This document shows positions 141 through 34,145 of a DNA stretch of 64,000 nucleotides, piece by piece. The translations under genes were made by a program, and so were the position numbers. Source of the DNA: Rhizophagus irregularis (lineage: Eukaryota; Glomeromycota; Glomeromycetes; Glomerales; Glomeraceae); NCBI RefSeq assembly GCF_026210795.1, contig NC_089451.1, forward strand, positions 322,501 to 386,500, given 5' to 3'. Below the pieces are notes generated by a model. It searched no databases and had not been told where the DNA came from. It was given only the letters and a program-made list of their open reading frames with translations. The first letter of the stretch is position 1. Each line of letters begins with the position of its first letter.

Positions 141-545
141 GCGTAAGTTTACGATTTTGTAAGTTTACGAAAGTTTATGGCATAATATTTCAAAAAATTT
201 CAAAATATTACATAAGTTTACAATTTCGTAAGATTTATGTAATATTACAGTTAAAATATTACACAAGTTTTCAATATCGTAAGATTTACGCAATATTACG
301 GTCAAAATATTTTGAAAATTTACGAAATTGTAAACCTGCGTAATATTACGGTTAAAATATTTCAAAAATTTACGAAACTGTAAACCTGCGTAATATTACG
401 GTTAAAATATTTCAAAAATTTATGAGACTGTAAACTTGCGTAATATTATGGTTAAAATATTTCAAAAATTTACGAGACTGTAAACCTGCGTAATATTACA
501 GTTAAAATATTTCAAAAATTTATGAGATTGTAAATCTGTGTAATA
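141..545. repeat. 50-bp AT-rich minisatellite
   Basis: Tandem units of about 50 bp. Equivalent positions recur at about 221, 271, 321, 371, 421, 471 and 521, each with a core like TGCGTAATATTACGGTTAAA followed by ATATTTCAAAAATTTA. Units become more diverged towards position 141. Short open frames across it are repeat translations and not genes. Confidence 0.85.
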
Positions 546-1250
546 TTACTATTCGATCGTTAAAGCTGCATATACAATAGAACGTATATAAGGGGCATGT
601 GATACTATTGAATAATCAAAAATAATATAAACACCTTTTCTTTTATATAAACACCTTTTTTTAAAGTTTGAGAAAATAAATTTATTTTTATTTACGAATT
701 TTTTATTATTTACAATTTTTATGTTAAAAATCAAAGTAAATTTTAATTTTTATTATAACTTAATTAAAAAATACACATTTGATACTTGTTCGCTACTATT
801 TTATAAAATAGTACCCAGGCTGTACGGCGTGGACGTCAGTATCAGTCACAGCCCAAAAAAAATGTGAGTCTCCAGCCGATATTTAGTACGGATTGGACCT
901 AGCTACTTACTTAATAAATAATAAAAAAATAAAAATAAATATCTTCTTCTAAGTTTCTCCTTACCCTATGATCATTACGCGTGACTAAAATTAATCAAAT
1001 TTATCAAATTTAAAACATGAACGTAAATATTAATTATAAATTTTATTATAGTATAATTACCTGGTCTCTCCTAAAATCTCGTTTTAAATTCACGATAATA
1101 TCTTTAGCCGGTACGCGTCCACAGCTGCCGCCTAGGGTTACATTACGATAAAGGACATAGTTCTTAATATCAAAATCAGTTTGAATATTCAATAAATACA
1201 TTTAATTTATATGAATGTAATTTTATTTATTTACTTACATGGTAATTCCT
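546..1250. other. Non-coding AT-rich DNA
   Basis: No open frame with coding character on either strand. A slightly GC-richer stretch at about 805-900 and another at about 1105-1140 are unassigned. Confidence 0.5.
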
Positions 1251-2668: not shown

Positions 2669-3187
2669 GTCGTCGGGCTGGTAGTGTGTCTCGCTAGCGC
2701 TCACCCCACCTCGGTCTCACGGCCTCGCAGTACCTACATCCACCCTCCGTGGGGTAGGGAACCCCCATAGATCCTCCACAATTCTCCACATAGATCCTCC
2801 ACAAAAATATATAACAAAAAAGGATAAAATAAGGGAAAAGAGAGGAAAATAAGAGGGAATCGGAGAAGTGTGGAGGATGTGGAGGATGTGGAGGACGTTT
2901 TAAAAAAATCGGGAGAGGGATCCCCCCAGAAAAAAGTTTTGATTTTACCCCCCCAGATCCTCCACATCTTCCACATCTTCCACACGTACAGGATTCCATT
3001 CATTTTCCTATTGGAAGCAATGAGATAGCAAACCAGGTAAGTTATTAGCAGGTAAGTCCCTAGAAGGCCTGTAGAGCCATAGAGATATAACCGGGTAGGA
3101 GCACGGATCCTTGGAAAAAATATATTTGGCAATTGAAGATTAGGTAACTATAAATTAGTACTCGATTTGATAGAACGAAAAAATGAC
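2669..3187. repeat. Maverick left terminal inverted repeat
   Basis: 519 bp, matched by 33622-34140 in reverse complement with only a handful of differences (for example G/A at 2672). It contains clustered TGTGGAGGA and TCCTCCACA units that are inverted with respect to each other (about 2870-2990), so each TIR can itself fold. The inner end includes a TTGAAGAT motif (3133-3140), a TATAAATTA box and the start codon of the first gene. Frames open across the TIR are not credible proteins. Confidence 0.92.
3133..3159 (+). promoter_or_regulatory. TTGAAGAT promoter-like motif plus TATA box in left TIR
   Basis: TTGAAGAT at 3133-3140 is followed by TATAAATTA and, 43 nt after the motif, the ATG at 3183. 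The same arrangement is present in the right TIR. Related motifs precede the starts at 9886, 10629, 27877, 28454 and 30976. The role as promoter is inferred from position. Confidence 0.6.
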
Positions 3188-3710
3188 ATATACCGTAGAA
3201 AAGTTGGCAGGAATCTTTGGCCGCACAGTCCCTGATGTTATGGGTATCAATAGGGAGATCCTAAAAAGCCACCAAAACCTGCACGCAGTATCAGTAATCC
3301 CCGAACTTGTAGGCCATATCCTGGAACGTATTCCAAGTAGCAATTTTGGACCGCATCTTCTAGAAGTCAGCCCAATCTGGAGAGCCGAAGCTGAACAAGT
3401 ACTCTGGAAGCGGCATAAAGAAGCTGAGAAGGTATACAAACAGGCAGTAGACTACTACAGGGAGGCCATTGACAATTTCAATGAAGCCGATCAGAAAAAA
3501 TACACTAGGTTCGCAGGAATGGTGGCAGTGAAAGAAAAAGCTCTCCTCAGATGTGACTTTATAACGCAAGAGTCCGACTGGGAGAAATGGACTCAAATAA
3601 CGTATAACATCCAATTGCTTAAAGAAGGCCGCACTCTTGATGACTCAGACGATGAATCAGATGATGGAGAGGTATCTCTCGATGACTCAGATGATGAGGA
3701 ATACTTTTAG
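3183..3710 (+). CDS. Maverick leftmost ORF, unknown protein with acidic tail
   Basis: I do not recognise this 175-residue protein. The first half is mixed helical with several charged residues. Residues about 75-105 (rich in A, E, K and Y) could form a helix. The last 25 residues are strongly acidic, with repeated DDSDDE. The ATG lies at the inner end of the left TIR, so its first codons and its promoter are shared with the helicase gene at the other end. It is uninterrupted, unlike several neighbours, and reads inward from the terminus. An acidic tail is common in DNA-binding or DNA-mimic proteins, but no function can be given. Confidence 0.75.
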   Translation: MTYTVEKLAGIFGRTVPDVMGINREILKSHQNLHAVSVIPELVGHILERIPSSNFGPHLLEVSPIWRAEAEQVLWKRHKEAEKVYKQAVDYYREAIDNFNEADQKKYTRFAGMVAVKEKALLRCDFITQESDWEKWTQITYNIQLLKEGRTLDDSDDESDDGEVSLDDSDDEEYF

Positions 3711-3790: not shown

Positions 3791-4039
3791 CTAAAATTTT
3801 TTGCCCGAGTTTTTTGCATTGCCGATTGTACGCCGTCTGATGTCTTTAGCTGCGGTTTCTTTTTTCTTCTCCTTGGTTTTCTTTTTGATAACCCAGTCTA
3901 TCCCAGTAAAAGTATTCTTATGCATCCCACAAACTACACAGTCACCATGTAAACGATAGCGGCCATTTGTGGTCATATCTTGTATTTCACTAGCAGTCTC
4001 GGTTTCCTTCTTACACTTTAGGCAGTAAAATCGTGTCAT
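3791..4039 (-). CDS. DUF5679-like small zinc-binding protein
   Basis: An 82-residue protein starting with MTRFYCLKCKKETE. It has one four-cysteine zinc site (C6, C9, C34, C37) with a TNGRYRLHGDCVVCG core, which is the pattern of the DUF5679 domain seen in large DNA viruses and virus-like transposons. The C-terminal third is lysine- and arginine-rich, suggesting nucleic-acid binding. The frame stays open upstream to 4384, but that part runs antisense to the integrase; I chose the ATG at 4039 because the recognisable domain begins there. The gene diverges from the integrase across a few bases. The function of the family is not known to me. Confidence 0.65.
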   Translation of the reverse strand: MTRFYCLKCKKETETASEIQDMTTNGRYRLHGDCVVCGMHKNTFTGIDWVIKKKTKEKKKETAAKDIRRRTIGNAKNSGKKF

Positions 4040-4047
4040 CTTAAGAT

Positions 4048-5173
4048 TTGAAGTCCGAAATCTTTCCTTTAATTTGTCGTAATATGTCGCATTTAGAGAA
4101 TTACTACAAATACTACAATCTCTCCAGAAAGACGGCACGAATTCTAAAAAGCAGGAAAGAGCACTACAACCTATATAAAAAGCCCCTAAAGGAGAAGTCA
4201 TCAGAGCGTCCACGAGTAGTTGTATGGAAACCAAATGCAACACATCAGGCAGATCTTGCAGAGATGCCAGTCGACCCCAAAGGATTCCACTATTTCCTCG
4301 TAGTGGTGGAAGTCGCGGGTAAACAAGTCGATGCAGAACCCCTAAAGATAAGACTGCAAATAGGGTTCTAAACGGGTTTGTCAAAATCTACAGAAGAAAT
4401 CGTATTAAGCCACCAACACACAGACTGGAGACAGACTCCGGATCAGAATTCACTAACGACCAGGTACGTGATTTTTTCCTGAACAGCCTAGGGTAATGAT
4501 GAGGTTTGGCGAACCAGGAAGACACAAACAGCAATCATACGCTGAACGAGCCATCCAAGCAATCCAGGAACCTCTCCTAAAACGAATGGTGGCACAGAAG
4601 TTGAAGACCGGGGTGACATTCGTGGAATGGTCAGAAGATTTCCGTGATGTAGTTAATAAAATAGATGAAATCTGGCAGAGAAATCCCCCAGACATTCCGA
4701 CAGGCCACTCAAAGTGTCAAAAAGACGGAACTTCTCTCGAAGGAACACATGTCCGAGTCAAGTTAGACGAACCTATTTTAGTACTCGGGAATAAACTCCA
4801 TGGAAAATTTCGTACAGGTGACATAAGATGGAATCCCAATATCCGTGTCATCAAAAAAATGATCCTCTCACCCGAACAGCCTCCTACGTATCTTCTTGAT
4901 GGACCACACGGGCGTCTAGTAGTATCCAGATGTGCGTACACCCGAAAAGAGTTGCAGATTGTTCCAGAAAATGAACATCCCCCACCTGACTCCGTGATAA
5001 GAGGGCAACCCGAAAGATTTGTACCTGAGCGGATACTCCGGCATCGCATCAGGAAGGGTCAAGACCAATATCTAGTCAAGTGGGAACGATACCCAGATAC
5101 CGAAGCCACTTGGGAACCCGCTGACCGGTTGGAGGAGGATGTCCCTGCCTTAATCTGCAAGTTTTGGGAATAA
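4048..5173 (+). pseudogene. Maverick integrase (rve-type) with C-terminal chromodomain, frameshifted
   Basis: A DDE retroviral-type integrase that would join the TIR ends to target DNA. The catalytic acids are visible as D in HQADLAEM, D in LETDSGSEF and E in SYAERAIQAIQ. A chromodomain ends the protein (QDQYLVKWERYPDTEATWEP), as in Ty3/gypsy chromoviruses and some Polintons, and may steer insertion to marked chromatin. The frame breaks twice. Near 4344 a run of A seems one base short. Near 4492 a run of G seems one base short, leaving a stop at GGG TAA. Both lie in homopolymers, so sequencing error is possible. The in-frame ATG at 4084 is an alternative start. The stop lies 14 bp from the convergent protease stop. 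Confidence 0.85.
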
Positions 5174-5187
5174 AAAATAAATATTCC

Positions 5188-5937
5188 CTATTTTTTGTCT
5201 CCTCGATTCACATCAGAAACTATCGGGATAAAAACATTCTTCTCATTACAAGTAAGGGCGATATGTTCACGTGATTCATGGACATCATAATTGTAACGTT
5301 TCAGACACGTCCGGCTCAATCCAATCTCCCTATGCTTATAATCGCTTAAAACCGCGAGATTCTCAGTGATTACACAATCAGGGGTTAGTTTGATTGACAC
5401 ACCTTTTACCATGCCGAATGTCCTACCAGAACCCGGAGCGCCGGATATGTTATGTGTAATACTCTTGTCGATATCCAACCCTAATTCTTCAGCGGCTTCC
5501 CTCTGAATAAAAGACGCGTTAGCACAAGTGTCTGCTAAACACTGAATTGCTATCCCATTGACCTTCCCATCCAGCGCTAAAAAATCTTTAGTATTCTCCA
5601 AACGAGCTATGTCAATATCCATCGGGTCATCTTCCCTGATATCCTCTTCTTGTTTTTCCTCAACTAGGTCTTCCGGAATCTCCGTACTTTTACGAGCAGA
5701 CTTTAATTCTTCCCGAAGAATCTCGCGGAGTAATTTTTTAAAATCTGCAGACCTTAATAAACTTAATGAATCATTTTTGGTGACGGCTTTTATAAGTGTG
5801 GGCTTACTACTAGTAACCTTCACAGGAATCTTAATAGGAGTCATTTTAACTGATTTTTTTGGAACAGATTTAAGAAGTTTCGAGATACTTACACCCTTAT
5901 CCGAGTTTACTTTTTTTTTGTACTTCGAACCGCACAA
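5188..5937 (-). CDS. Retropepsin-like aspartic protease (Pro), expressed by frameshift from Gag
   Basis: The catalytic Asp lies in the motif LADTCANASFI (about D136, where most retropepsins have DTG or DSG). A downstream EIGLSRTCLKRYN segment resembles the conserved second motif (LGxxxLxxY). The first ~115 residues are lysine-rich and then acidic, probably disordered linker. There is no ATG at the 5' end: the frame opens inside the end of gag, and the overlap has A AAA AAG just before the gag TAA, so a -1 ribosomal frameshift would give Gag-Pro. By analogy it would cut Gag during particle maturation. No reverse transcriptase or RNase H follows; the integrase gene comes next, on the other strand. 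Confidence 0.75.
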   Translation of the reverse strand: MCGSKYKKKVNSDKGVSISKLLKSVPKKSVKMTPIKIPVKVTSSKPTLIKAVTKNDSLSLLRSADFKKLLREILREELKSARKSTEIPEDLVEEKQEEDIREDDPMDIDIARLENTKDFLALDGKVNGIAIQCLADTCANASFIQREAAEELGLDIDKSITHNISGAPGSGRTFGMVKGVSIKLTPDCVITENLAVLSDYKHREIGLSRTCLKRYNYDVHESREHIALTCNEKNVFIPIVSDVNRGDKK

Positions 5938-5938
5938 A
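5907..5938 (-). promoter_or_regulatory. Putative -1 ribosomal frameshift site (gag to pro)
   Basis: On the minus strand the gag frame ends ACA AAA AAA AAG TAA. The heptamer A AAA AAG (5916-5910) lies directly before the stop. Slipping back one base leads straight into the open protease frame. A AAA AAG is a well-known -1 slippery sequence. A length error in the nine-A run would instead fuse or separate the frames artificially. Confidence 0.6.
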
Positions 5939-7402
5939 TCCGAAAACCACCTTCCTCATCGGGAACAATTTTCAAGTCATCAAAACTCGTGGTATTAGTA
6001 TCAATATCCATAGCATCATCATTAAGATCGAGGTTTCTCATTGCTCGGGCTAATTTCAGATCATCGCGTCTATCTTTAGCCTTCTGAAGTCTCTTTGGAA
6101 ATCTTTTAGACGTCTCATATCCCATAATAAGATCAATAACATGTTGATCATCCTCACTAGTCCACTCAGGAGCATCAGGGTCACCAGGGTCATCACCAAA
6201 ATCATGATCTACATAACCATCATCCCAATCAGGATCCTGATGATCCTGAACAACGCGTGGCCGTGGCTTTGGCCAAACAGGTTTAATCTGTTGTCTATAG
6301 ACCGGTGGTTTACGAACTGGCTTAGATGCTTGTAATTGTTTAAATTGTGCCTGGAAATTCTTGGTAAGTTCCTCGGCTTGTGCCTTGAGCAATTCTTGTA
6401 ATCGTTCTTGAGTAATAACGTCTGTCGACCTTTGTATTACAGCACCTTCGTGTGGAGTCACGGGATGAGTATAGCCAGCCAATTCCTCTTTTTTAGCCTT
6501 TTCAATACCCTGACGCCTTTGTAATCCATAGAACATTTCGCCCTTTCGTCGCTCAAGATCACTCAATCTATCGATTAATGTATTAAGAGGTGCCGCCCGA
6601 TTCTGGAAGCTTCAATAACGTTTTCTGGCAAAAGTCCTCTATAGAACTGGTCAGTAACCATAATTCGATTATATCCTACAATATCTCCAGCCCTCTCAAC
6701 TCGCTTATAGTAAGATCGAACAGGTTCATCTTGTTCCTGGTAAAGGTTACTAAATCGTATCTGAAGTCTTTCTTCCATGACGGTTGGAAAATTTGTACGC
6801 ATATGCATAAATGCTTGATCTAGGAGAATCCCCTGTAAGACTATTGGTTGATTCTGGATAGCAGCATTAAATGGACCTCCATGATTTCCCAACCCATTAA
6901 CGGGTTGATGAGTAGGACGTCCGCCCGCACGCCTCCACTGCTCTTCAACTTTAAAATTCGTTCTAACGATATCAGCACGTGATGGGAAAAATGCATCTCC
7001 AACGGTTACCGCCGCATTACCTGCAACCCTTGAATATACATCAGCATCAGACCCGGGTAAGTAAGTACCAACATGTAATCCATTAGCAACCTCAGGAACA
7101 GCTAAAGCTCTGAACGCTCGGCGAGTAGCACCGGCTCCACCATTTGCAGTAGCCACTAATTGAATATTTGAGAGTTCCCAATTTTTTCCAGTAAGTTCTG
7201 CATCAAACCACCTCGCTGCTTCATCTCTCATACAGCTACGAAGAACCCCCATCGCTCACACCCGACCTGGAGGTGCACCGGCATCATCCAATGGATCAAT
7301 ACCAACGGTATTAATATACTCTAAAAAGTTATCAATAAAAAGATTAAGATCTTCATCTTCCTGACCATGAAATATAGGGGCAGCTATACCAACGGCAGCC
7401 AT
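5907..7402 (-). pseudogene. Gag-like capsid protein carried by the Maverick, interrupted
   Basis: The protein starts at the ATG at 7402. An N-terminal part with IAAPIFHGQEDEDLNLFI and, further on, MRDEAARWFDAELTG follows the pattern of retrotransposon Gag capsid domains. A middle part contains MRTNFPTVMEERLQIRFSNL and then YYKRVERAGDI. The last ~215 residues are charged and lack a CCHC zinc knuckle. Two lesions are visible: an in-frame TGA at 7258-7256 (probably CGA before) and a frameshift near 6595. I recall similar Gag proteins, often preceded by a coiled coil, in Rhizophagus proteomes. It sits between the coiled-coil frame and the protease with no LTRs, and it probably forms the particle shell of this element. 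Confidence 0.7.
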
Positions 7403-8067
7403 ATCGTATTTTGTGGATGGTTGAGAGGAGGTGGAGGAAGGTTCAATTGTCTAATCCGAAACCATTGTACTTGGATACGCAGAGCGGCTATTTGTTGGAA
7501 AAGTCGATTCCTAAGACGTCCCAATGTCCGAATTCCAAAAAGAACCCGATTATTGGCATATACAAGCCGATTTCGTGCTGCATCACGCTCGCCTATAGCT
7601 CTATTACGTTCTCCTCTCATAAGATTATATTGCTGCTGAAGACAACGATTAGTCGTCCGCATACCACCAAACTCACGTTCCAATTCAGCCAAATTAGCTT
7701 CTAAACTAGTAATAGTATCTTGTACGTTATTTAGCTCATCTTGTGTAAGACCTAACAAACCCATTTGAACCTCGAGTTCATCTTGTAATTCATCACGTTC
7801 TTTTCGAGATCGATCACGTTCCGCTTTTAATATATCGCGTTCTTCGTATGTTTCTCTACAGCGATGAATTAATAAATTAAGAGCATGTTTAAGACGATGG
7901 TTTGCATTTTGTACATCTCGATTAACAACCATGCGATCACTGACAGTTAAAAAATCTGTTAGATCCTTAATTACCGCAACTAATGGTATATTATTCATAT
8001 CACGCAAATCCCTAGGAGGCGGTCCAGTAGGCTCTGAAGGAGTATAAATTGCAATTGGTGTCGACAT
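7384..8067 (-). CDS. Coiled-coil protein, probable N-terminal part of Gag
   Basis: A 227-residue protein. Residues about 60-190 are heptad-like and rich in E, R, L and Q (for example RDRSRKERDELQDELEVQMG), a long coiled coil. An N-terminal proline-rich stretch (TPSEPTGPPP) precedes it. The frame overlaps the start of gag by about 19 nt and lies in another phase, so the two may be one Gag polyprotein (coiled coil plus capsid) joined by frameshifting or separated by an indel. The ATG at 8067 is only 31 bp from the divergent ATPase start. No homology to known capsid scaffolds is claimed. Confidence 0.65.
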   Translation of the reverse strand: MSTPIAIYTPSEPTGPPPRDLRDMNNIPLVAVIKDLTDFLTVSDRMVVNRDVQNANHRLKHALNLLIHRCRETYEERDILKAERDRSRKERDELQDELEVQMGLLGLTQDELNNVQDTITSLEANLAELEREFGGMRTTNRCLQQQYNLMRGERNRAIGERDAARNRLVYANNRVLFGIRTLGRLRNRLFQQIAALRIQVQWFRIRQLNLPPPPLNHPQNTIWLPLV

Positions 8068-8098
8068 CGTATTTAAACTAAGATAGAATAAAATTCAA

Positions 8099-9322
8099 AT
8101 GGATCTTTATGTATACAATTTGGATGAGTACACGACCGACTCGAGACAGGGTAATGAGTTTGCCCCATCATGGCCTTTCCGTCTTGCCGTAGCAGGAAGT
8201 TCTGACTCGGGTAAGACAACTATGATTATTAATTTGTTAATGGGAGACAAGAAGGCAAAGGAGGATGGCAAAAGGTACATATTATGTGATGCGGTAATTC
8301 TAGTTGGCAGATACCTCGATGAACCGAAGTGGGCAGTCATACGTGATTTTTTCAAAGAAGAAGAAATTCCGTTTACCGCAGTATCCCATAGTGAGATTCC
8401 AAATGTTAAGGACTTCAACTCCACCCAGGCTACTGTGGTAATCTTCGAGGATTTGATGGATGCGCCTAAAAAAACCCAGGATCTCATCACTGGATTTTTT
8501 ACACACAGGCGTCACAAAAATATCTCATGTATCTATGTGGCCCAAAGATTCTTTACCATTCCCAAGGCTATTCGTGAAAATGTGAATTATATTTCCCTAC
8601 ATGGAGGTCACGGAAGTTTGACCGATACTAAGAGGATCATCCGCCAGTATACAGAAGAATCGGAGTCACTAGCTCCAGTAATCGATGACCTTACTCTACA
8701 ACGCGAATTTATAGTATTTGATCTTAGAAGATCCAAGAGCGATCCGTTATCTATTCGGGTTAGATGGGATACTAGTCTCAGTTCGATCACCGATCAATCT
8801 CAGTTCGATCCTAGTTCGATCTCAGTTCAATCCCCGTTCGATCCGAGTTTGAACTCAGTTCGATCGAAGTTCAATCCGAGTTTGAACCCAGTTCGATCAA
8901 AGTTTAGTTCCTATGGCCAGAAAGCTGTAGCTGAAGCAAAAAAGTCCTCCCAGCTAATCGAGTTTGCTCGGGAATATCTGTCGCCTAAAGAGAGAAAACA
9001 CCTTCTCGTATCTGGTGTTATAGCTAAGAACGCAGATACCTGGATTAAGTACGTCTTTCGGGAAGCCTACGGACTATCTGGTAAGACCTTGGGATCAGAC
9101 TTCCAAAACTTCTTAGCGAAAGTACGGGATAGGACCACGAAGACTGAAATTCCAAAACCTGAGACCGTAAAGGAGTTATTCTCCCGATATGAAGTCCTGA
9201 AGTCTAGTCACCCTTTGGATAATAAAAAATTAATAGAAGGCATCGGGGTTCTTTTACAGATCTTTTCTAAGGGTCATATGGACCGTCGAGCATTACGAGT
9301 AGGGATCAATAGTATTTTGTAA
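8099..9322 (+). CDS. Packaging ATPase, A32/FtsK-HerA type
   Basis: Walker A is GSSDSGKT (residues 33-40), Walker B is TVVIFEDL (about 113-120), and a sensor-like segment NISCIYVAQR follows (141-150). This is the order seen in the genome-packaging ATPases of Polintons, virophages and large DNA viruses, which pump DNA into capsids. After residue ~225 there is a tandem repeat (QFDPS, SPFDPS, KFNPS with intervening SVRS), then a helical C-terminal domain of ~130 residues. At 407 residues it is longer than the usual ~250-residue Polinton ATPase because of this extension. The frame is intact. The start is 31 bp from the divergent coiled-coil/gag gene, which suggests a shared promoter for packaging and particle genes. 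Confidence 0.85.
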   Translation: MDLYVYNLDEYTTDSRQGNEFAPSWPFRLAVAGSSDSGKTTMIINLLMGDKKAKEDGKRYILCDAVILVGRYLDEPKWAVIRDFFKEEEIPFTAVSHSEIPNVKDFNSTQATVVIFEDLMDAPKKTQDLITGFFTHRRHKNISCIYVAQRFFTIPKAIRENVNYISLHGGHGSLTDTKRIIRQYTEESESLAPVIDDLTLQREFIVFDLRRSKSDPLSIRVRWDTSLSSITDQSQFDPSSISVQSPFDPSLNSVRSKFNPSLNPVRSKFSSYGQKAVAEAKKSSQLIEFAREYLSPKERKHLLVSGVIAKNADTWIKYVFREAYGLSGKTLGSDFQNFLAKVRDRTTKTEIPKPETVKELFSRYEVLKSSHPLDNKKLIEGIGVLLQIFSKGHMDRRALRVGINSIL

Positions 9323-9886
9323 GAATCTGGCTGCTTTAGCAACCCATCTCGTGAAGTTCTTCCGCAGAAGCCCTAAGAATCATGGCGCTTTTTTACGTCC
9401 TTCGAAGTCAATCCGTAGCATCCTAGCTTTTAACCCAATAGCTCCGGCGGCTCGAAGCAAAGTTCTTAGTCATCGGATTTCTTACATGACTTACATAGTT
9501 TTCATAGAATGTAGTAAAGGGTTCGTCAATACCATCCGGGTATGTATTCCGTAAGAACTGATATAAGGCAATTTCCCCACTGTCACATCCAATTCGGCTA
9601 TAAGCTGTTCAAGAAGCCACTTTCTAGTATCCTCGTATGAATCTCCGTCCATAATTTTCATATCCAGTCTTTGTGTGAATAATTGCGTAAAATCCGCATT
9701 ACTTGCCCGACGGATAATCTGGACCAACTTATCCCTGGCAAGTCCCAAGGCTTGTAAAGGTTCACTCTCGTCGCCAATCTTCTTTATAATCTGTCTATAC
9801 AACACGCTGGATAATCCTCTATATGCCGCTTTTGCAGAAAATACTCCACAGTTCTGACACTGGTTTATTACGATTGATGTTGACAT
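9296..9886 (-). pseudogene. Unknown Maverick protein, frameshifted
   Basis: The first 131 codons are open from the ATG at 9886 and begin with a CQNC pair. The frame then breaks at a CCCC run near 9577. The next frame reads EIALYQFLRNTYPDGIDEPF and later a third frame reads ALGLKARMLRIDFEGRKK-like sequence (actual core AIGLKARMLRIDFEGRKK), also with a stop before the end near 9296. Coding character shifting between frames suggests a single gene of about 190 residues with two indels and one stop. Its 3' end overlaps that of the ATPase. It belongs with the next gene (same strand). No function is recognised. Confidence 0.55.
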
Positions 9887-10047: not shown

Positions 10048-10629
10048 TTAGGAAGCGCAGTCCTTGCACAACTTGTCCGTTAAGTCACTTGGGCTCACAG
10101 GCATGAGACATTCCCTACACAACTCAATATTAAGCTCTGCAAGTCTCGGGGCATGGTCCTCCAAAGTTCGTGGACGACCGGAAGGACCGGAGGAAGGTGT
10201 CCCGTTAGTCGTATCTTGCTGTAAGATAAAATCATCATATTCATCTTGGTCAGCTTGAATAGCGGCTCTGATTTGTTGTATATTATTGAAAGTTAACCGC
10301 TGGCCATCAAGATTTTCCTCATTATAGCGCGTTTCATTGATGATTTCCTCTATAAGCTCCTCCTCTTCAGAATGAACAAGGTAGTAGTCCTCAACTACCT
10401 CGTAGTCACTCTCAACCAGTCTATGATACGTTCTAGTACGTGTTGAATATAGCGTCCTGTATCTGTATTTAAATATACAGGTTGTTCCCAGGTGGAGCGG
10501 TACGGTTTGTCTACGGACAAGCCTTCCATCGATATAATCATGGGATTCCATAACTATTCGATTAAAGGTATCTCCACCAACACGGATTGGACGTCCGGTT
10601 ATAGGATTAGTTATATAAGGGTATGACAT
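10048..10629 (-). CDS. NPxTGR-motif protein with C-terminal zinc ribbon
   Basis: A 193-residue protein, intact from ATG to stop. The N-terminus has YITNPITGRPIRVGG, like the NPxTGRxI core of the 2-cysteine adaptor domain seen in large DNA viruses, although the paired cysteines of that domain are not obvious here. The middle is tyrosine- and arginine-rich, then strongly acidic. The C-terminus has four cysteines (C171, C174, C188, C191) that can bind one zinc. In viruses such adaptors are attached to other domains and may mediate protein contacts; the role here is unknown. The LINE insertions lie just upstream of its promoter motif. Confidence 0.65.
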   Translation of the reverse strand: MSYPYITNPITGRPIRVGGDTFNRIVMESHDYIDGRLVRRQTVPLHLGTTCIFKYRYRTLYSTRTRTYHRLVESDYEVVEDYYLVHSEEEELIEEIINETRYNEENLDGQRLTFNNIQQIRAAIQADQDEYDDFILQQDTTNGTPSSGPSGRPRTLEDHAPRLAELNIELCRECLMPVSPSDLTDKLCKDCAS

Positions 10630-10696: not shown

Positions 10697-10711
10697 TCAT
10701 CAGTCCTTGTC
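10697..10711. repeat. LINE target sequence TCATCAGTCCTTGTC, copy 1
   Basis: This 15-bp sequence recurs at 18901-18915 (between the two LINEs), in part at 27060-27072 and in full at 27110-27124. It flanks the 3' end of LINE copy 1 and marks the insertion site. Confidence 0.8.
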
Positions 10712-10981
10712 AAGGCAAACATGGCATAGTAGCCTTTATCTTTATTAAATTTATTTAACGAACTTACAAAAATAATATTAAAATTTTCAAAGTACAAAAA
10801 GGAAAATAAAATTAACTAAAAACAAAACTATATAGTCTCCAAAACAGTAATAAAGCTATAAAATTAATTCAAAAGGAAAAAAATCGCATAACACTAAAAC
10901 TATCCTGATCCCCCGCCTAGATATATTCCAACCTAAGAAGAAGCAACTATGCAAACAAACTAACGAACAATGCACCCATTG

Positions 10982-13900
10982 TTAAAATCGACACACCACC
11001 CTGCTAAAGCTGTTAGTAAGTTGCACCGTTAGACGACCCATAAAACCCGAATAGTGATTAAACCAAGGCAAACCATATTTCATCGAGTTCTTTAAATAAT
11101 CAACGTCGGAGTCACATGCGGCGTCGGAAAGGGTCGGAGGATGTAAAGTTGAGAAAGGTAAGTACGTGGACTTTGGCAAATTTGAAGGCCGAGAAAGTTT
11201 GAGTTTATGAGTAATATTCATCGCGTCTTCCCATTTAGATTTATCATAGGAGCGCGGAAGCCAAATTCGTTTTCTGATCTTTTGGATAAAGTGATTGTGG
11301 ATAGCAGAGATAACCTTCATCGCGGAATTTCGTGGAATAGAAAGTTCATCAAAAAATGCGACAAAGGATTTCGGAAGGCAGCCACGGACAAGGCTATATG
11401 AAGTCCAATTTGAAGAGGAAAAGGACCAACAAGAAAGAGATTTAAATTTGTTAATAACTAGAGACGGATCTTTGTTAACAAGATCACCAGCTTCTTGAAG
11501 TTTGTTAATAAAGTGATGTTGGTAGGAGAGGAGAATCTGTTCCATAGCGATTCGTCTACATTTGCACATAAATAAGTGCATGAAATCTTCCTTGGAGTCG
11601 AGGCATGAACGACATAATAAGATGTCGATATACAAGTCCGGGCGGATTCTTTTAAGATGTTCCAAGGTAGGTAAATCTTCCAAAAAGAGTTTGAATTTGA
11701 AGGTTCGATGAGAGGAAGCATGAGCACGAGTAAAAGAAGCATCATGCTGAGGTTCAGCATTTAACGTAAACCAGGTAAGATCCCAATCGATTACGAAGTC
11801 TGAGATGGAAGATAAAGCAATGGTAAAGTTAAATCGCGATAAACGCGTTAATCTATGCATCCACAGCATTTGCGAATATTGCTTGAACAGGCGTCGTGGG
11901 TTAGATTCGCATAAAACATCATCATAATTTAAAACAAAATCGTGAGGAGATACTTGATCCAGATCAGAAAGAAGAATTGCTGAAGAGGAAGTATGCGCAG
12001 AGTTGGCTAATGAGTCCGCGTAGTCATTGTAGAAATTACCAGAGTGATCTTTCACTTTAACGGCAGTGACGGATAAAGATTTGGATGAAATGAGACGTTC
12101 AATAATAGCCCAAAGTTCAAAATTGGTGGTCTTATAATAAAGCCTACTAGTGAAATAAGAAAACGTAGCATATAGACGAAGACCATCTATGGCAGATTGA
12201 GAGTCAGTATGAATAGTGACCGTTGAAGAGGGAGGAGTGACTGTAAGAGCAGCATGTATAGCGGCAATTTCAGCCCTTGTAGAAGAAGGCCAATTATGAA
12301 TAATTCCATGAGCGTGAGCAGCGATAGATTGGAAAAAGCCAGCGCCATCAAGGACTTGAACCCAAGACCAACCCATAGAAACATCAGGAGTGCCAAGGTT
12401 AATTAAAGAACCATCGGTATAAAAACAATAGTGGTTATCAGGAGGAGTCGCTAACGGTGAGGCAGCAAAAGCAAGAGGGGCAGCTGAACCCAAAGAGGGA
12501 AGAGGAGAAGAAGAAGGGAGAGTAGCCACAGCTTCTTGTGAAAAATTAGGTTGAATGTCCAAACGACCATAATAGGATCTTACAGTCTCGTCAAGGTCCG
12601 CCCAAGTAAAGGGAGAAGTAATATTGGTGGTGTCATGTCTAATACGCTCTTGCGTTGTTAGGAAAAGTAAAGATCTAAGAGGGGAGAGTTTTGGGATGAT
12701 ACATAAAGGAGTAACATCTGTTGGATTGCTTTTAGTATGGGTAACCGGTACATGTTTAGAACAACCGGGACAAGGAGTAAGCGTGATAACATCATTAGGT
12801 CGAGTTACACAATCAGAGGTCCAATGGACAATCTTGCAGGAATATTGTTGTTTACTGAGCTGTTTTCCAAAAAGAGGAGAACCATCATCATCCAAAGTTA
12901 CGATCCATTTCATGGATTTGCGAGAGGAACCAAAGGCGGGGAGCAAGTCGATATTGGAAGGAATAGCATCAGAAGAAAATCGATCCAAAAGAAGAGAATT
13001 GGAACCTGGAGTAGTGACGCGTTGATGAATGTCATTGAACCATTTGTGCGGGAGGACACGATGACCTTTCTTGCTCGATAAATTGGATAGATAAACGTTC
13101 CAAGTAATCATATGAGTTCCTTGAGGCGTAATAAATTGTGATAGGTAATAAAGTTGCAAACTTCTAAGACGTCGGAAGTAAGATATAAAAATTTTTGGAG
13201 TCATAACATCATATAAAGGTGTATGACCGTTGAATATAGTAAGGTCAGGCAAAGTTGAAAGTCGTGAACGCAACAACTTGAAAGGAGTGGTGGTCAGGAG
13301 AGCAATGGTGCAAGCGATATAATCCTGTTTAAAAGCAAAAAGTTTAGACCATATAGTCCAATCTTTAACTAACAAAGGAGAAATAGGAATCAAAAAAGAA
13401 AATTGAATTAAACGTAATCTATATAAAAATAAATATTTCATAAAAGAAGAAGACGAATTAGCTAATAAAAACAAATTAGTTAAATGTGTTTGTGATTGGT
13501 GAAAAAATAAATTAATCAATCCCAAGCCTTGAGATAAAAACAAAATAGAATCAGGGAGCACTCGTGAAAAGTTGGCCTTATGTTTAACCAAGGAACGGAT
13601 GCTGCTGGTTGCTGAGGCACATTCAGATTCGGAGAGGTGAGTGACTTGCATACGATATTCCAGCTTCGGAATAAGGACGGTATTGTGCAGATAAACAACT
13701 TGTTTTGCAGATAGTTTGGCAGGGCGAACGATAGCCGCGAAGGAATTACATTCACGAGTGACTTGCTTCTTGACAAAATCACGAGAACCGGCGACATTGA
13801 ACCAGACGCCTAAGAAGCGAAAAGAGCTATTCATAGAGATAGGTACAATAGAAATGGAAGGAACTTTGTTCAGTCCAGATAATTGCAAGTCAAACACGAC

Positions 13901-16603
13901 TGGAGAAGGCGAAGAAACTGAAGTGGGAGGCAACAAATTAGTAATTAAAACATATTTGTTGTGATTAGCGGAAGTATTATTAATTTGATAAAATTCTTCC
14001 GTAATAGAAAGCATTGATTCCATTCCAGATTTGGATGACGAAATTAAAGTAGAGTCATCCATAAAGACCAAATTATTGATACGTAATCCATCTGAATTAG
14101 TCTGAGCCAAAGGATTGATTAAAGAGGGAGCATGAAGCATATATGGATCCATCATTTCTTTTTTGAGAACAGTCAATAAAGGGTCTATATATATGACCCA
14201 GAGTAAAGGAGAGATAACTTCGCCTTGATCTATACCAATGCGAACACGGTAAGAAGGAGTAGTTCCATGAGCAGTAAAAACGCGATTAGAGCGTTTCATG
14301 AAGAGGGATAAAATAAACTTGGTAGCAAAAGCAGGAAGTTTAATGCGATCTAGAGCGAAACGCAACATCTTGAGATCAACCGAGTCGAAAGCCTTTGAAA
14401 TATCTTGCGAAAGGATCCAAAGCGGCGATTTATTGACATGAGCATCATGGATAATAGATTCCAGAACGACAATAGGGTCGCGACAAGAACCACCTGGGAG
14501 ACCGGCGAAGTTACCTCCTTTGAGAACTTCATTTGAAGCCAAAATGGAAGCGAGACGGTTATAAAAAAGTTTGACCAAAGATTTTCTAATTACTTCGAGC
14601 AAAGTAATAGGTCTCGTATTCTTTAGTTGACATTTTCATTCGTGAGGTTTAGGGATAGGAAAGACCATAGCCTGGCGCCATAAATCAGGAATATCTGCGG
14701 TACGAAGACATGATTGGACAAGGATTAAAACCAAAGCAGAAGTGTTTAAACCCAGATGCTTAAGCATTTCATAAGTAATCATGGAAGGACCAGGAGCTTT
14801 GTCATTAGGCATTGAAGAGACCGTAGACAACCATTCTTCGAGAGTAGGAGGATCCAATAAAGAATTATAAATTGAAGAATCCACATCGTCCATAGGGTGA
14901 TAAGCAGAAGACCATCTTTCAGGAAGAGTTGAAATGGTATCTGGAGGAGATGATTTAATAGGTACAGAATTCTGGAAGTGGTCGATAACGGCGTCGTCAA
15001 TATCATGCGGGTCTGTCAATAATTTTGGATGTGTAGGGTGGTCAATAAATACACGATCCAAGGTAATACGACGTAGAGTTCTTGAAAGAGCGGAATCAAT
15101 AAATGAAGAGATGTCAGTTGCAAAATTGTTATCCCTATCATCCAATTTAGCACGAATGGAAGAATCTTGAAAATCTTTTTCTTTAAGGAGAAGGAAGCCA
15201 TAAAGGGCACTAGAGATAAGCTTTAATGAGTCTAATAGAAATTTAAAATCGTCTTGCCTACAAATGGATAAAGAAACAGGCAAAATAGGGGGAGAAGGAA
15301 TAACCTTCTTATAAAGATGTAGAATATTTTAAAGTCTAATGAAATGAGTAGACCAAGTACGTTCATATCTATTATAATAAGTAGAAGGATATTTTCGCAA
15401 TAAACGTATCGAATGCAAAAGACGGCTGAGGAAACGATAATGTTGAGTTAAGGCTTCCAAATCCTTGGGCATCGTGGGTGTATGCTGATTACCAACTATA
15501 ACAGATGGAAGGGAAGCATTAGCAGCTTTCAATATACGAGAATGTAGATATTCGCATTGTTGATTAATATGCCATGTTGAGAAGGTTGATGGCGGTACGT
15601 CGCATAAAGAGTCAGTATGAGTAGAGAAAATTTCCCATTGTTGATCAGTCACTGAATCAAATTTGAATATGCGGCGAGTTCGACGTTGAAGTTGTTTAGC
15701 GCGAGCAACCTTGATAGACGCAAATAAGAGTGAATCATCGAAATAAGTGATGATGGGATTATGATCAGAAGAGCAGGTGTCTTGGGCGTCAAATATATAG
15801 GAGGTGAGAGCAAAACTTTTAAGCATTGGACAAGACCAAACATAGTCTATACGAGTAACTTGATCGTCACGGTGAAAAGTGCCTAAGGAATCAGAAGCGT
15901 TAACAGGAATAGTTTCTTCATATCCATGAGATAAAAGATGATGTAGCAAACGATAAGTTCGTTGAGAAGCAATAGAAGGGCGGTTAAAATAAATAGGATA
16001 GTAGGCATCTAAATGCATATTGAAATCGCCACAAATGGCGTGATAAAAATTTTGTTGTTTAGTTTGCACTAATAATTGTAAAAGGAGATCAATAGTTTCA
16101 GATCGTAATTTAGAATCAGAAATAGGGGGGATGTAAATAACAAAAATACGCAATTTAACGTTGCCTTTAAAATAGAGGTCAACAGATAAAATACGTGAAG
16201 AATGTGAAACAAAATCTTGTACGTAGGAAGCAAGAGATTTTTCAATAAAAAGGGAAACGCCACCAGTAGATTTGACTTGTTTGGTTTTATCTATATCAGA
16301 TGAAAAGACAGTATAATTAGGAAGGCGTTTAGAGAGAAAATGAAGTCGTTTAGGGGATAAATGGGTATCTACGATACCACCAAAGGAAATATGTTTAAGG
16401 TTGAAAAAGTTGGAAATTTGTTCAATTTTAACTTGGCTATTATGTCGAAGGCCATTAATATTAAAGGATGAAATATTAAAGGAATTGGGAATAGGGGGGG
16501 AATTTAATGTAGTAAATAAAGATTCATGTTCCAAAAAATTATAAGTATCTACAGGATTGGGTGGGTTTCGAACAAACGTATCATGATTAAAATTGTCAGA
16601 CAT
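10982..16603 (-). pseudogene. LINE copy 1 ORF2: endonuclease, reverse transcriptase, RNase H (two nonsense codons)
   Basis: A single frame of about 1873 codons. The APE endonuclease shows SFNINGLRHN, CGDFNMHLD and SDHNPI. The reverse transcriptase shows SQDISKAFDSVDL, GIDQGEVISPLLW and the catalytic FMDDS. RNase H shows FYTDGSL, AEIAAIHAAL and HTDSQSA. A CRSC-HLFMC zinc motif follows near the C-terminus. Two stops interrupt it: TAA just before 15329 (CAA in copy 2) and TGA just before 14636 (TGG in copy 2). The rest is open, so inactivation is recent. The RNase H motif VKDHSGN has D where copy 2 has G. The enzyme would nick DNA and prime cDNA synthesis on the target. Confidence 0.9.
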
Positions 16604-16650
16604 TAGAACACTATGATAATAAAGTACGGGGAAAGGAGGTGAGAAGTCAG

Positions 16651-18783
16651 TTATTGCGAAGGAGCTGAAGCTCGATCGGAGGGAGAACCACCAAGAGAAG
16701 CAATAAAACCTTTTATGGAACCAGTGAGCGATTGTAAAGTATCTTTAATCGCTTTTTGATCTTGAATAACGGAGTTCAATTCGTCTTGCGGGGAAGGGTT
16801 AGAAGTGGATGCAGAAGCAGAGTGTGGGGCTTTGTTGGATGTAGATGCAGAGGAAGAGGATTTCATTGAACCAGCAGATAAAGGAGCATTGGGATGCTGG
16901 ATTAAAGTGCCAGTGGTTTCAGGAGGGTCTTCTTCCATTCGATCAGGTTCAGTATTAACGACAGGTGCAGAGGGAGGATTGATGCCTAAATGGGCTTCAA
17001 TAGCAGATAGCCATTGATTGTTAAGTTCAAGATTTGAAATGCGGGATTCCACTCGAGCAACATCTTGTTGAAGATTCTTTAAAACATTAAGAATCTTAAG
17101 GGCAGCCTCAAGAGCATTAGGAGAATTCGGATCCGGGAGTGGAGCACGAGCATTGGACGAAAAGGAAACAGATCTATCTTTGCCTTTACGGTTGTTGGAA
17201 GGTGTACGTCCATGAGCAGTTGAGGAGGAGTTAGCTGAGCCAGAAGAGGAGGAGGGCTTAGCATTAATATTGGAATTATTATTATTAGATCTATTGGAGT
17301 TGGAATTAGAACGTTGAGCTGAAGCAGAACGATCCCGAGATTTAGATCGAGATCGAGAATGAGAATTATCGCGCGGCGTTCTTTGTTGGGTGGGCCTTTG
17401 GCCAATGTTGAAGCGTTCTTTAAGAGCAGCCACAGGGTCACGTGTACGTGAACGACCACGGCGTTGGTTAAGCGGACAGGAGGTAGGAGCACAACCGAGT
17501 TTACCGCATCGGTGGCAAAGAGCTTTCGAATCGTTGGATGTACCCCATCGAAGAGTACGACCTTGGAAACCAATAGTCTGCTCCATAGCGGCATCCATTG
17601 TCTCTTGCGAGTTGAAGGTAACATAAGCCCAAGGTTTGGGTTTATAAGAATTTAGGGAAAGGGGGATGTTAATGGCTTTTCCTCCATGTTCTTTGACCAA
17701 AGGGGCGAGATGGATATCTTTGGTATTAGCGGGAAGTCCAGAGAGAACAGCTACAAACGCTCTACGAGCAGCTTTTTGATCCAAAGAGTAATGGCATGGG
17801 GTAACACGTAAGCAGGTGGAAAAGCAGTAAACTGCCCATTGAGTAGTGAAACGGGAGATGGCATCAGCATGATCATAGACAATGCGAGCTTGTTGCATCT
17901 TAGCACCTTTCCTTGAGTAAAGATGAAGGGCAAGGAGATTGCCGAATTTCTTGAAGTAGGATTGGAGTTGCGGTTTAGTAATGAAGAACGGTATATCCGT
18001 GACTTGAATTGCACAGAGGTCTTCATCGGACCGGAGTTGTTTGGGATCGTACAGGTGGAATTGTAGGTCCGGAAAATCGGAGTGTGTGCTTCCAACACAC
18101 AAATCACGAGCCTCCGCAGTATGAAAATGTATGATAAGGCGCTTAGCGTCCCCTGAACCAGTCATACGAGCCCGACCGGTATATGATTCGTAAGTTTCTA
18201 AAAATAAATTGTTAACGGCATCTATAATTGCCTTATTAGTTTTAAGTTTCTCTAGAGTTTGGGGAGCGGAGTTGGGCGCAGCCGCAGCCAGGAAATCTTG
18301 ACGATTAATGGTAATGGTAGGGGAGGGATCGACAGCCTGATCGGGCGATGTACCATCATTCACGTCCTTATTAGGGGACGCGTTAGGGGATGAGTTATTT
18401 TCTTTGTTTCGAGGTGCATGAATAGACGCGTTAGCTCCAGAGGACGCGTCTCGGCCAGGCGCAGTAGGCGCAGCAGAATTATTCGGGGTAGAAGCTTGAG
18501 TATTTTCTTGGGCAGTGCTGCGGGAATTATTTTGTTGAGGAATAGCAATCGAAGTTGAACCAACTAAACCACCGTCAGCCGGCGCATCGGCAACGAAATC
18601 TTCATAGTCTTCATCCATGGAGTCTTTTGTAAGTATACGGGAACGTTTTTGAGAGTTATTGTCACTATCGGAACCAGAGTTGTCAGAGAGTTGTTTTTTA
18701 TTATTTTTCTTTTCTTGACGAGCAGCCTTATTACTATTAGGATTAAAACTGCCGCCACCTCTTTTAGCAAAGTTTCTAGACAT
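16651..18783 (-). CDS. LINE copy 1 ORF1 protein (RRMs, zinc knuckle, SR-like region)
   Basis: A 710-residue protein, intact. The N-terminal ~160 residues are low complexity (N, S, P, A). Two RRM-like folds follow: one around AIQVTDIPFFITKPQLQSYF and one around FVAVLSGLPANTKD with AYVTFNSQETMDAAM. Next is a cysteine-rich knuckle (CHRCGKLGCAPTSC), then an RSRSKSRDRS stretch and a possible C-terminal helix. Such ORF1 proteins bind element RNA and form the ribonucleoprotein. It is the only intact LINE ORF1 in the window. It ends 47 nt before ORF2. Confidence 0.9.
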   Translation of the reverse strand: MSRNFAKRGGGSFNPNSNKAARQEKKNNKKQLSDNSGSDSDNNSQKRSRILTKDSMDEDYEDFVADAPADGGLVGSTSIAIPQQNNSRSTAQENTQASTPNNSAAPTAPGRDASSGANASIHAPRNKENNSSPNASPNKDVNDGTSPDQAVDPSPTITINRQDFLAAAAPNSAPQTLEKLKTNKAIIDAVNNLFLETYESYTGRARMTGSGDAKRLIIHFHTAEARDLCVGSTHSDFPDLQFHLYDPKQLRSDEDLCAIQVTDIPFFITKPQLQSYFKKFGNLLALHLYSRKGAKMQQARIVYDHADAISRFTTQWAVYCFSTCLRVTPCHYSLDQKAARRAFVAVLSGLPANTKDIHLAPLVKEHGGKAINIPLSLNSYKPKPWAYVTFNSQETMDAAMEQTIGFQGRTLRWGTSNDSKALCHRCGKLGCAPTSCPLNQRRGRSRTRDPVAALKERFNIGQRPTQQRTPRDNSHSRSRSKSRDRSASAQRSNSNSNRSNNNNSNINAKPSSSSGSANSSSTAHGRTPSNNRKGKDRSVSFSSNARAPLPDPNSPNALEAALKILNVLKNLQQDVARVESRISNLELNNQWLSAIEAHLGINPPSAPVVNTEPDRMEEDPPETTGTLIQHPNAPLSAGSMKSSSSASTSNKAPHSASASTSNPSPQDELNSVIQDQKAIKDTLQSLTGSIKGFIASLGGSPSDRASAPSQ

Positions 18784-18900
18784 GTTAGAAGGTATGAGTT
18801 GGGTAAAATATAAGAGTTGTTAGTACGAAGATATAAAATTTTCTTTCCGAAAATTTTTGGTTAATAGATCGGCAGTAAGAGATCTATCAGTCCTATCATA

Positions 18901-18915
18901 TCATCAGTCCTTGTC
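18901..18915. repeat. LINE target sequence, copy 2, between the tandem LINEs
   Basis: TCATCAGTCCTTGTC is the only sequence of pre-insertion type between the 5' end of LINE copy 1 and the 3' end of LINE copy 2. Just left of it lies a partial duplicate (ATCAGTCCTATCATA, 18886-18900), a sign of a slipped 5' junction. Confidence 0.75.
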
Positions 18916-19181
18916 AAGGCAAACATGGCATAGCAGCCTTTATCTTTATTAAATTTATTTAACGAACTTACAAAAATAAAATAAAATTTTCAAAGTACAA
19001 AAAAGAAAAATAAAATTAACTAAAAACAAAACTATATAGTCTCCAAAACAGTAATAAAGCTATAAAATAATTCAAAAAGAAAAATCGCATAACACTAAAA
19101 CTATCCTGATCCCCGCCTAAATATATTTCAACCTAAGAAGAGGCAACTATGCAAACAAACCAACGAACAATGCGCCCATTG

Positions 19182-24783: not shown

Positions 24784-24830
24784 TAAAACACAATGATAAT
24801 AAAGTACGGGGAAAAGAGGTGAGAAGTCAG

Positions 24831-26966: not shown

Positions 26967-27059
26967 GTTAGAAGGTATGAGTTGGGTAAAATATAAGAGT
27001 TGTTAGTACGAAGATATAAAATTTTCTTTCCGAAAATTTTTGGTTAATAGATCAGCGGT

Positions 27060-27148
27060 ATCAGTCCTTGTCAAAAAATGCGAGGATGCCTGATGATGAG
27101 GTTACATGGTCATCAGTCCTTGTCGCAAAACACGAGGATACCTGATGA
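27060..27148. repeat. Pair of hairpin repeats forming the LINE target
   Basis: Two related units of ~37-39 bp (27060-27096 and 27110-27148). Each runs TCATCAGTCCTTGTC, a short A-rich loop, then CGAGGAT(A/G)CCTGATGA. The outer TCATCAG and CTGATGA arms pair, as do TCCT and AGGA, so each can form a hairpin or cruciform. The LINE junctions lie within this motif. It may be a natural terminator or recombination site of the Maverick. Confidence 0.6.
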
Positions 27149-30960: not shown

Positions 30961-30993
30961 TTCTTGAGTATTGCATTTTTATGTATATGATTT

Positions 30994-31001
30994 GTCTTCA
31001 A
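30994..31001 (-). promoter_or_regulatory. TTGAAGAC promoter-like motif
   Basis: TTGAAGAC followed by AAATCATATACATAAAA lies 17 nt before the ATG at 30976, the probable polymerase start. Confidence 0.45.
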
Positions 31002-31060
31002 CTATAAATAATATCTTTCTATATATATACGAAAAAAAAAGAAATAATCTCAAATAGCGC

Positions 31061-34140: not shown

Positions 34141-34145
34141 TCTGT
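34141..34145. repeat. Target-site duplication TCTGT (right)
   Basis: Identical to 2664-2668. Confidence 0.85.

Follow-up and report, generated by a model that had tools for sequence, protein, structure and literature searches.

The DNA analysed here (the window) is a stretch of 64,000 nucleotides, C23:322501-386500, from a genome of 146.7 Mb in 32 contigs; contigs are labelled C# and copies fetched from elsewhere in the genome L###. At 2669-34140, the window holds a self-synthesising DNA element of Polinton/Maverick-like type, from arbuscular mycorrhizal fungi. Between its integrase (INT) and its A32-type ATPase lie a coiled-coil (CC) protein, a Gag and a retropepsin-like protease (Pro). Near-identical counterparts of the window Gag and ATPase are recorded under the name Rhizophagus irregularis. 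The principal features are as follows, in window coordinates.

2669-3187, plus strand: left terminal inverted repeat (TIR), with the target duplication TCTGT at 2664-2668
4048-5173, plus strand: integrase, rve with a C-terminal chromodomain, present as two open reading frames (ORFs) in the window, 4048-4371 and 4496-5173
5188-5937, minus strand: Pro (Asp_protease_2, E 3.1e-8), with the motif DTCA, not DTG/DSG
5907-6566, minus strand: Gag C-terminal region, ending at an A-run before TAA and overlapped by Pro in a different frame
6575-7402, minus strand: Gag capsid (CA) region, interrupted in the window copy
7384-8067, minus strand: CC protein upstream of Gag; its ORF overlaps the Gag start
8099-9322, plus strand: A32/FtsK-type P-loop ATPase (Pox_A32, E 1.5e-9), head-to-head with the CC-Gag-Pro genes
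10697-27060, minus strand: nested LINE, two tandem copies ~8.2 kb apart, with endonuclease and reverse transcriptase; outside the core element
29122-30960, minus strand: family-B DNA polymerase (PolB; DNA_pol_B_2, E 3.1e-5, below the curated cut-off; phrog_1907 DNA polymerase, 4.5e-6)
32414-33311, minus strand: SF3-type helicase in two overlapping ORFs (DUF5906, E 3.8e-8 and 0.0023)
33622-34140, minus strand: right TIR, with TCTGT at 34141-34145

Anatomy of the element and identity of its Gag-Pro genes

The TIRs are long, as in Polintons/Mavericks: each measures 519 nt and the two are 97% identical. An exact 5-bp target site duplication (TSD), TCTGT, flanks both. The nested tandem LINE accounts for ~16.4 kb, and the element without it measures ~15.1 kb. 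A second copy with both ends seen, C13:658218-673230, is 15,013 bp long and flanked by ATTAA (its first 10 kb and last part were read). The TSD was therefore 5 bp in both copies with two visible ends, rather than the 6 bp typical of Polintons; in a third copy tried, L019, the right end lay outside the stretch read.

The coding set comprises the rve/chromodomain integrase, a DUF5679 protein, CC-Gag-Pro, the A32 ATPase, PolB, the SF3-type helicase, a 492-aa ORF and several small ORFs. In the window copy, gag, integrase and helicase are split over more than one frame; other copies have single-frame gag and integrase genes. Specifically, the integrase is a single 363-aa ORF in copies such as L011, where rve was matched at E 1.2e-8; the chromodomain of the window integrase was matched at E 3.6e-17 (Pfam). 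The ATPase is of the A32/FtsK packaging type, and its motifs GKT and IFED were kept in all six sequences aligned, three of which are window-family copies. The polymerase belongs to the family-B type of Polintons/Mavericks on the strength of its PHROG match and a Pfam match below the curated cut-off, and is probably protein-primed, judging from its family and the TIRs alone. As single queries against PDB sequences, PolB, the helicase-like ORF and the ATPase returned nothing useful, with no PDB match for PolB. By eye, the N-terminal part of the PolB ORF, which had no Pfam match, contains the pattern DCLYECL...GHY, which we take to resemble an OTU-type cysteine protease motif.

A preliminary description of this DNA had placed an integrase, an A32-type ATPase, a PolB and an SF3-type helicase within one pair of TIRs, with a coiled coil, Gag and aspartic protease in the middle. 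Using Pfam and PHROGs, we found all four enzymes close to where it had put them, and the three module genes, all on the minus strand, occupy the interval from integrase to ATPase. An ORF that it gave as 9296-9886 is not open (four stops); the open frame is 9491-9886.

The identification of Gag is firmer with relatives than with the window protein alone. The window Gag matched Retrotrans_gag at E 0.0025, below the curated cut-off, and an open 498-aa Gag, P0002, had no Pfam match at 0.01. Among 46 Gag homologues searched at E 0.01, nine matched Retrotrans_gag, six zf-CCHC and ten Asp_protease_2; in all of ten homologues checked individually, the matches were under curated cut-offs. When CA segments were used, eight of nine matched Retrotrans_gag (best, 2.5e-5), the window-family segment being the exception. 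A profile built from the nine segments matched the PEG10 CA C-terminal domain (CA-CTD) in PDB at 2.2e-4 (profile positions 195-268) and, weakly, the Arc2 CA N-terminal domain (CA-NTD) at 0.18 (positions 10-67), in the correct NTD-CTD order. Together with the Retrotrans_gag matches, this describes the two-part CA of a Ty3/gypsy Gag. Roughly 100-130 extra residues lie between the two matches, with an invariant E-x-W followed in most sequences by AGG. The CCHC pattern C-x2-C-x4-H-x4-C was present in 14 of the 46 homologues; zf-CCHC was matched in L034 at 0.0039 (below the cut-off), and the knuckle of L029 was seen by eye. For Pro, the profile from alignment A1 matched DDI1-type retropepsins at 2e-8 and Ty3 Gag-Pol at 0.0019. 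Type C, one of the more distant Gag groups described below, carries both CCHC and the motif DTGS, the latter in P0152, P0176, P0192 and P0193.

The three genes are also joined in places. NCBI gene models fuse CC, Gag and Pro in one protein, apparently via predicted introns (P0003, P0015); at the distant locus L030, CC and Gag form one 823-aa ORF; and in type C, Gag and Pro form one protein of ~1056-1075 aa. On the basis of these joined models, the single ORF and the fusion, we consider that CC, Gag and Pro belong together. Four of 20 fetched copies (L017, L022, L026, L027) retain an open Gag ORF, 494-500 aa long, and the A-run just ahead of the Gag stop varies from A8 to A10 across copies. Pro of the window family could be expressed either by a frameshift at the A-run or by splicing.

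Between Gag subfamilies A and B, identity per 40-residue block was 22-65% in CC and CA and 60-92% in the Gag C terminus and Pro, which suggests that the shell part (CC/CA) may have been exchanged or may evolve rapidly. The greater divergence of CC and CA also favours a reading in which Gag-Pro is a weapon that co-assembles with, and poisons, the particles of host LTR retrotransposons, to the advantage of the element; captured Gag fragments, such as Fv1 and Ty1 p22, restrict retroelements elsewhere. We consider a weapon very improbable, inasmuch as a whole Gag-Pro kept beside the integrase across lineages, as documented below, would exceed what a restriction fragment needs.

No reverse transcriptase or RNase H was found between INT and ATPase, and the reverse transcriptase and LTRs expected of a Ty3/gypsy element were not found with the module. 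For the window family we rejected Gag as part of an LTR retrotransposon. It had been claimed that no reverse transcriptase or LTR accompanies the Gag. This holds for the INT-ATPase module, whose element ends are TIRs, and fails for the whole span, in which the nested LINE encodes a reverse transcriptase (RVT_1 at 5e-18 and 1e-23 in the two copies). In the window and eight of 20 other copies (L009, L010, L014, L016, L021, L024, L026, L028), the LINE lies ~70 bp past the 193-aa ORF, and L011 has a 711-bp LINE piece at the same site. Either the LINE targets that spot or there is a LINE-carrying Maverick lineage.

Conservation across copies and lineages

When the ATPase was used as a DNA query, 41 matches came back, of which one is the window itself, two are pieces of a single locus and 38 are further loci. 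For 20 of these 39 other copies, 10-kb stretches were read. CC and at least part of Gag adjoin the ATPase in all 20, and the order INT-PRO-GAG-CC-ATPase is complete in 18, with a partial INT in L012; in L018 and L020 a truncation falls within the module. Other copies without Gag-Pro at this site would, according to the preliminary description, have refuted its reading; none of the 20 read lacks Gag there. Some element copies appear to be inserted into each other (L018, L012, L017), at the integrase, Gag or 193-aa ORF.

Values of dN/dS for open ORFs, as plain means over non-independent pairs and without a significance test, were 0.48 for Gag (from few copies: 5, in 10 pairs), 0.44 for CC (15), 0.28 for Pro (16), 0.17 for ATPase (13 copies) and 0.08 for INT (9 copies).

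A Pfam search of the genome for A32 returned at least 136 matches (186 candidates, 150 scored). Five A32 loci were chosen by ATPase match before any Gag search was made there. One of these, L032, belongs to the window family and has the module. In the other four (L029, L030, L031, L034), the ATPases are 34-40% identical to that of the window, and all four loci have an integrase and a Gag relative. The Gags of L029, L030 and L031 are 29-30% identical to the window Gag; in L034, the stretch read covered only the CCHC-bearing C-terminal part of Gag, which shares 40% identity with its L029 counterpart. Of these four loci, L030 is the one at which Pro was observed. A cysteine-rich protein, zinc-ribbon-nuclease-like by eye, occurs in distant elements at L029:6877-7392 and L030:4555-5220; that of L030 had no Pfam match.

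We also counted how often Gag, ATPase and integrase loci adjoin. These counts are among the matches listed, and chance is the share of the genome that lies near a listed match. Within subfamily B, 55 of 64 Gag loci have an A32 match within 6 kb (chance, ~1.2%) and nine are without one; all 55 pairs are head-to-head, at 0.8-2.6 kb. With the L030 Gag as query, 53 loci were found in three groups: L030-like (13), a second group (6) and type C (34). An A32 match lies near 11 of the 13 L030-like loci and all six of the second group. An integrase match lies head-to-head within 4 kb at 49 of the 53 loci (chance, ~0.7%), including 32 of the 34 in type C, 16 of which show a 9-bp gap. The module stands beside an integrase in at least four deep Gag lineages. 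Regarding whether Gag-Pro sits between the same integrase and ATPase across copies, as had been asked, the order holds in 18 of the 20 copies and the integrase pairing recurs in deep lineages.

At several L030-like loci (C8:3489533, C8:1521939, C1:5516504 and similar), CC is 82-95% identical and, at some, the Gag C terminus is 43-74% identical. Among the matches listed, these loci had none over the CA region, and their capsid segment may have been swapped or shortened.

Ty3 elements are abundant in fungal genomes, and a piece of an LTR retrotransposon might have inserted by chance into a single Maverick. This is refuted by the same position in 20 copies, the head-to-head integrase order in lineages ~30% identical, and dN/dS values below 1; we assign it a negligible probability. 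Because it is kept in 20 copies and recurs head-to-head in several lineages, the module is not a stray insertion, and we regard it as nearly certain that these elements have long carried Gag-Pro under selection. Taken together, we hold the anatomy of the element and the lineage-wide conservation of its module with high confidence.

Type C departs from the other groups in one respect that weighs against a general Gag-ATPase partnership: none of its 34 Gag loci has an A32 match within 6 kb among the matches listed, so the ATPase may not be the universal partner of this Gag. Type-C Gag as an LTR retrotransposon was also considered; against it stands the integrase lying head-to-head at 32 of 34 loci, and the upstream flank of one locus was read. 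At that locus, L035, the stretch L035:1144-3606 next to the type-C Gag and integrase holds a 667-aa ORF, with polymerase-like motifs by eye and no meaningful Pfam or PHROG match, and an endonuclease VII domain at 1.1e-4 (below the cut-off). The Gag start there is that of P0152.

The type-C arrangement, with an integrase next door, a polymerase-like ORF at the one flank read and no listed A32, favours a reading in which Gag forms an intracellular nucleoprotein particle that moves or shelters element DNA, integrase or RNA between nuclei. The ATPase would then serve replication or segregation rather than packing, and the element would be a transposon that has a Gag compartment, not a virus. Multinucleate hyphae make nucleus-to-nucleus transfer useful. 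We nevertheless consider such a particle unlikely: in the other lineages, an A32 match lies head-to-head with Gag at most loci, and the ATPase has a low dN/dS.

Homologues of the Gag and the ATPase are also named in other species. Those of the L030 Gag (72 matches) bear the names of six Glomeromycotina species, R. irregularis, R. clarus, R. diaphanus, Glomus cerebriforme, Paraglomus brasilianum and Cetraspora pellucida, others being without a species name. The ATPase had 447 matches; Gigaspora rosea, Diversispora epigaea and R. clarus are among the species named in the 120 listed. Two R. clarus proteins, the Gag RclHR1_13470009 and the ATPase RclHR1_13470011, have locus tags two apart and are both assigned to a 26,861-base contig, which suggests that the linkage exists there too. 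Viral contigs queried with P0123, the ATPase alignment, the window ATPase and P0002 yielded no relative.

The capsid slot and a possible Gag-based particle

The remaining ORFs of the element, in which a conventional capsid gene might be sought, are as follows.

3183-3710, plus strand: ORF of 175 aa (MIT, 0.025, below the cut-off), with a C terminus that looks acidic by eye; most copies contain the 3' part of this ORF
3791-4384, minus strand: DUF5679 ORF (E 1.6e-17), the domain being in the low-coordinate half
9491-9886, minus strand: ORF of 131 aa, no Pfam or PHROG assignment
10048-10629, minus strand: ORF of 193 aa, weak 2-cysteine adaptor match (E 0.0021, below the cut-off)
27485-27877, minus strand: ORF of 130 aa, weak F-box match (0.025, below the cut-off)
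28149-28454, minus strand: ORF of 101 aa, no Pfam or PHROG assignment
28537-29070, minus strand: ORF of 177 aa, weak IQ-motif match (0.0026, below the cut-off)
30979-32457, minus strand: ORF of 492 aa, first ~65 residues helicase/primase-like (Pox_D5, 0.0035, below the cut-off; DNA primase, 0.0077, PHROGs); the remainder has repeats
33354-33626, minus strand: ORF of 90 aa, no Pfam assignment

Outside the element, at window 236-549, there is a direct-repeat array with 50-bp spacing and five copies in register.

At the sequence level, no window ORF matched a double-jelly-roll capsid in Pfam or PHROGs, in agreement with the earlier claim that the element has no such gene elsewhere. Similarly, there was no sequence match to a single-jelly-roll penton in the window ORFs, and none in Pfam to an adenain-type (C5) cysteine protease, a retropepsin-like protein being present instead. 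For the 90-aa ORF, a match to a phage virion family at 0.043 is taken to be chance. ORFs wholly without an assignment span 90-193 aa, and a full copy is only 15.0 kb long; room for a capsid gene therefore appears limited, an argument made incomplete by the 492-aa ORF. The ORFs at 3183-3710, 10048-10629 and 30979-32457 had no meaningful match among PDB sequences. A jelly roll hidden in the unassigned ORFs, raised earlier as a possibility, thus found no support in Pfam or PHROGs, or in PDB for 3183-3710 and 10048-10629; the 492-aa ORF was matched only at its start.

Capsid genes are common, not universal, in Polintons: of 72 elements, 46 have full-length capsid proteins and 13 more have split ones, according to the part of PMC4028283 available to us. 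Polintons of Glomus intraradices (Rhizophagus irregularis) are named in a passage of PMC7805220 among those without a detectable major capsid protein, with none identified by 2021; the same passage links the absence of capsids in such Polintons to the idea of a transposon life.

That a Ty3-type Gag-Pro module occupies the slot of the jelly-roll capsid and cysteine protease is well supported by the copies, the deep lineages and the lack of a recognisable jelly roll. The step from occupancy to replacement of the capsid module, which the preliminary description had also proposed, is weaker. We regard Gag-Pro as likely to be a functional capsid replacement, an estimate that we lowered because most of the 492-aa ORF is without a match.

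In the mechanism that we propose, PolB, probably protein-primed, would copy the linear, TIR-ended DNA while the CC/Gag protein would assemble a Gag-type shell. Pro would be made as a Gag-Pro fusion, through a frame change at the A-run or an intron, and would then trim Gag. The A32 ATPase, transcribed divergently from Gag, would load or move the element DNA into or with the shell, and the integrase would insert the DNA with a 5-bp target duplication. Loading of double-stranded DNA (dsDNA) into Gag shells by the A32 ATPase is a possibility towards which we remain somewhat sceptical; type C without a listed A32, the altered protease motifs and the lack of a knuckle in the window family all weaken it. 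Similarly tentative is the evolutionary form of the proposal, in which a Glomeromycotina lineage, of viruses or transposons with DNA genomes, exchanged its jelly-roll shell for a full Gag-Pro module and packs protein-primed dsDNA via an A32 motor, without reverse transcription. The account as a whole, a Polinton/Maverick-like element with Gag-Pro in the place of capsid and protease plus this mechanism, is the one that we modestly favour.

Several observations weigh against this account. The window-family CA segment alone had no Pfam match at 0.1, and no CCHC was found in the window-family Gags checked (P0001, P0002, P0003, P0015). The protease motif varies: DTCA in the window family, DTGS in type C and, by eye, DPGA in L030. 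We know of no particle for these elements. The 492-aa ORF was matched only over its first ~65 residues. Genome searches with the profiles PF21738, PF04451 and PF00770 were empty, and carry little weight because controls were equally silent. The 5-bp TSD departs from the 6 bp given as typical of the rve integrases of Polinton-like viruses in the section of PMC12220804 consulted. Finally, a Gag-like protein need not be a shell: in the accessible text of a preprint (PMC11071296), the helical (Cah) proteins of a few adintoviruses are described as remotely similar to retroviral capsids, although the great majority of adintoviruses bear penton genes.

This adintovirus likeness, in a group of which the great majority encode pentons (PMC11071296, same text), together with the largely unmatched 492-aa ORF, is the basis for regarding the Gag-like protein as an accessory core or scaffold, the outer shell being hidden in one of the unassigned ORFs, having been lost, or coming in trans from a different element or virus. 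Here, however, a retropepsin accompanies Gag and, in several lineages, so does CCHC, which is a complete Gag-Pro order; in addition, no window ORF matched a jelly roll, and the genome searches were empty, with their silent controls. We consider an accessory role improbable.

Shell proteins are regarded as the most stable trait of virus lineages. Replacement by Gag-Pro, if true, would be a clear natural capsid replacement across realms: a Polinton-type element with dsDNA would have exchanged its shell with a retroelement and maintained the new one in several lineages within a single group of fungi. Packing of dsDNA into Gag shells, if true, would make a new particle type joining two large virus realms. 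The replacement may explain why no ordinary capsid gene has been found in these transposons, and would answer an open question, as no capsid gene had been detected in the Polintons of R. irregularis (PMC7805220, passage cited above). A Gag in the capsid slot also makes a particle search in a laboratory fungus possible and raises the question of whether a Gag shell is compatible with an A32 motor.

Comparison with known systems

In the open-licence literature, which leaves most subscription journals and preprints outside, we found no report of Gag-Pro in a Polinton-like element, which is not proof of novelty. Two papers on transposable elements of this fungus mention Maverick, twice and once, respectively, in the text available (PMC8647823, PMC11075540).

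Ginger DNA transposons share with the window element a Gypsy-like integrase in a TIR-ended DNA element. They differ in being cut-and-paste elements of ~2.6-7 kb with, for Ginger1, a 4-bp TSD, and in the excerpt of PMC2836005 consulted no PolB, ATPase or capsid is described for them. A Ginger identity was rejected: the 5-bp TSD, 15-kb length and PolB of the window family contrast with the 4-bp CCGG/CCGT TSD of Ginger1 and a small cut-and-paste element.

Adintoviruses and other meldviruses share PolB and an integrase with the window element and, in a few members, helical proteins that remotely resemble retroviral capsids. They differ in the clear penton gene of the great majority, and no retropepsin is named for them in the accessible text of PMC11071296.

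With Ty3/gypsy elements (Metaviridae), the window element shares a CA related to Retrotrans_gag and PEG10 and weakly to Arc, a retropepsin, and a Gag/Pro overlap in different frames; the CCHC pattern is shared by related lineages only. A chromodomain integrase, also shared, is typical of chromoviruses. Unlike in Ty3/gypsy elements, the window integrase has a gene of its own, encoded on the other strand, the element has TIRs and a DNA polymerase, the module is without LTR or reverse transcriptase, and the CA contains the ~100-130 extra residues.

From Polintons/Mavericks, the window element differs in having Gag-retropepsin and not a sequence-recognisable jelly-roll major capsid, penton or adenain-type protease. 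It shares with them a size of ~15 kb once the nested LINE is set aside, the long TIRs, the rve integrase (here with a chromodomain), PolB, the A32/FtsK-type ATPase and the SF3-type helicase.

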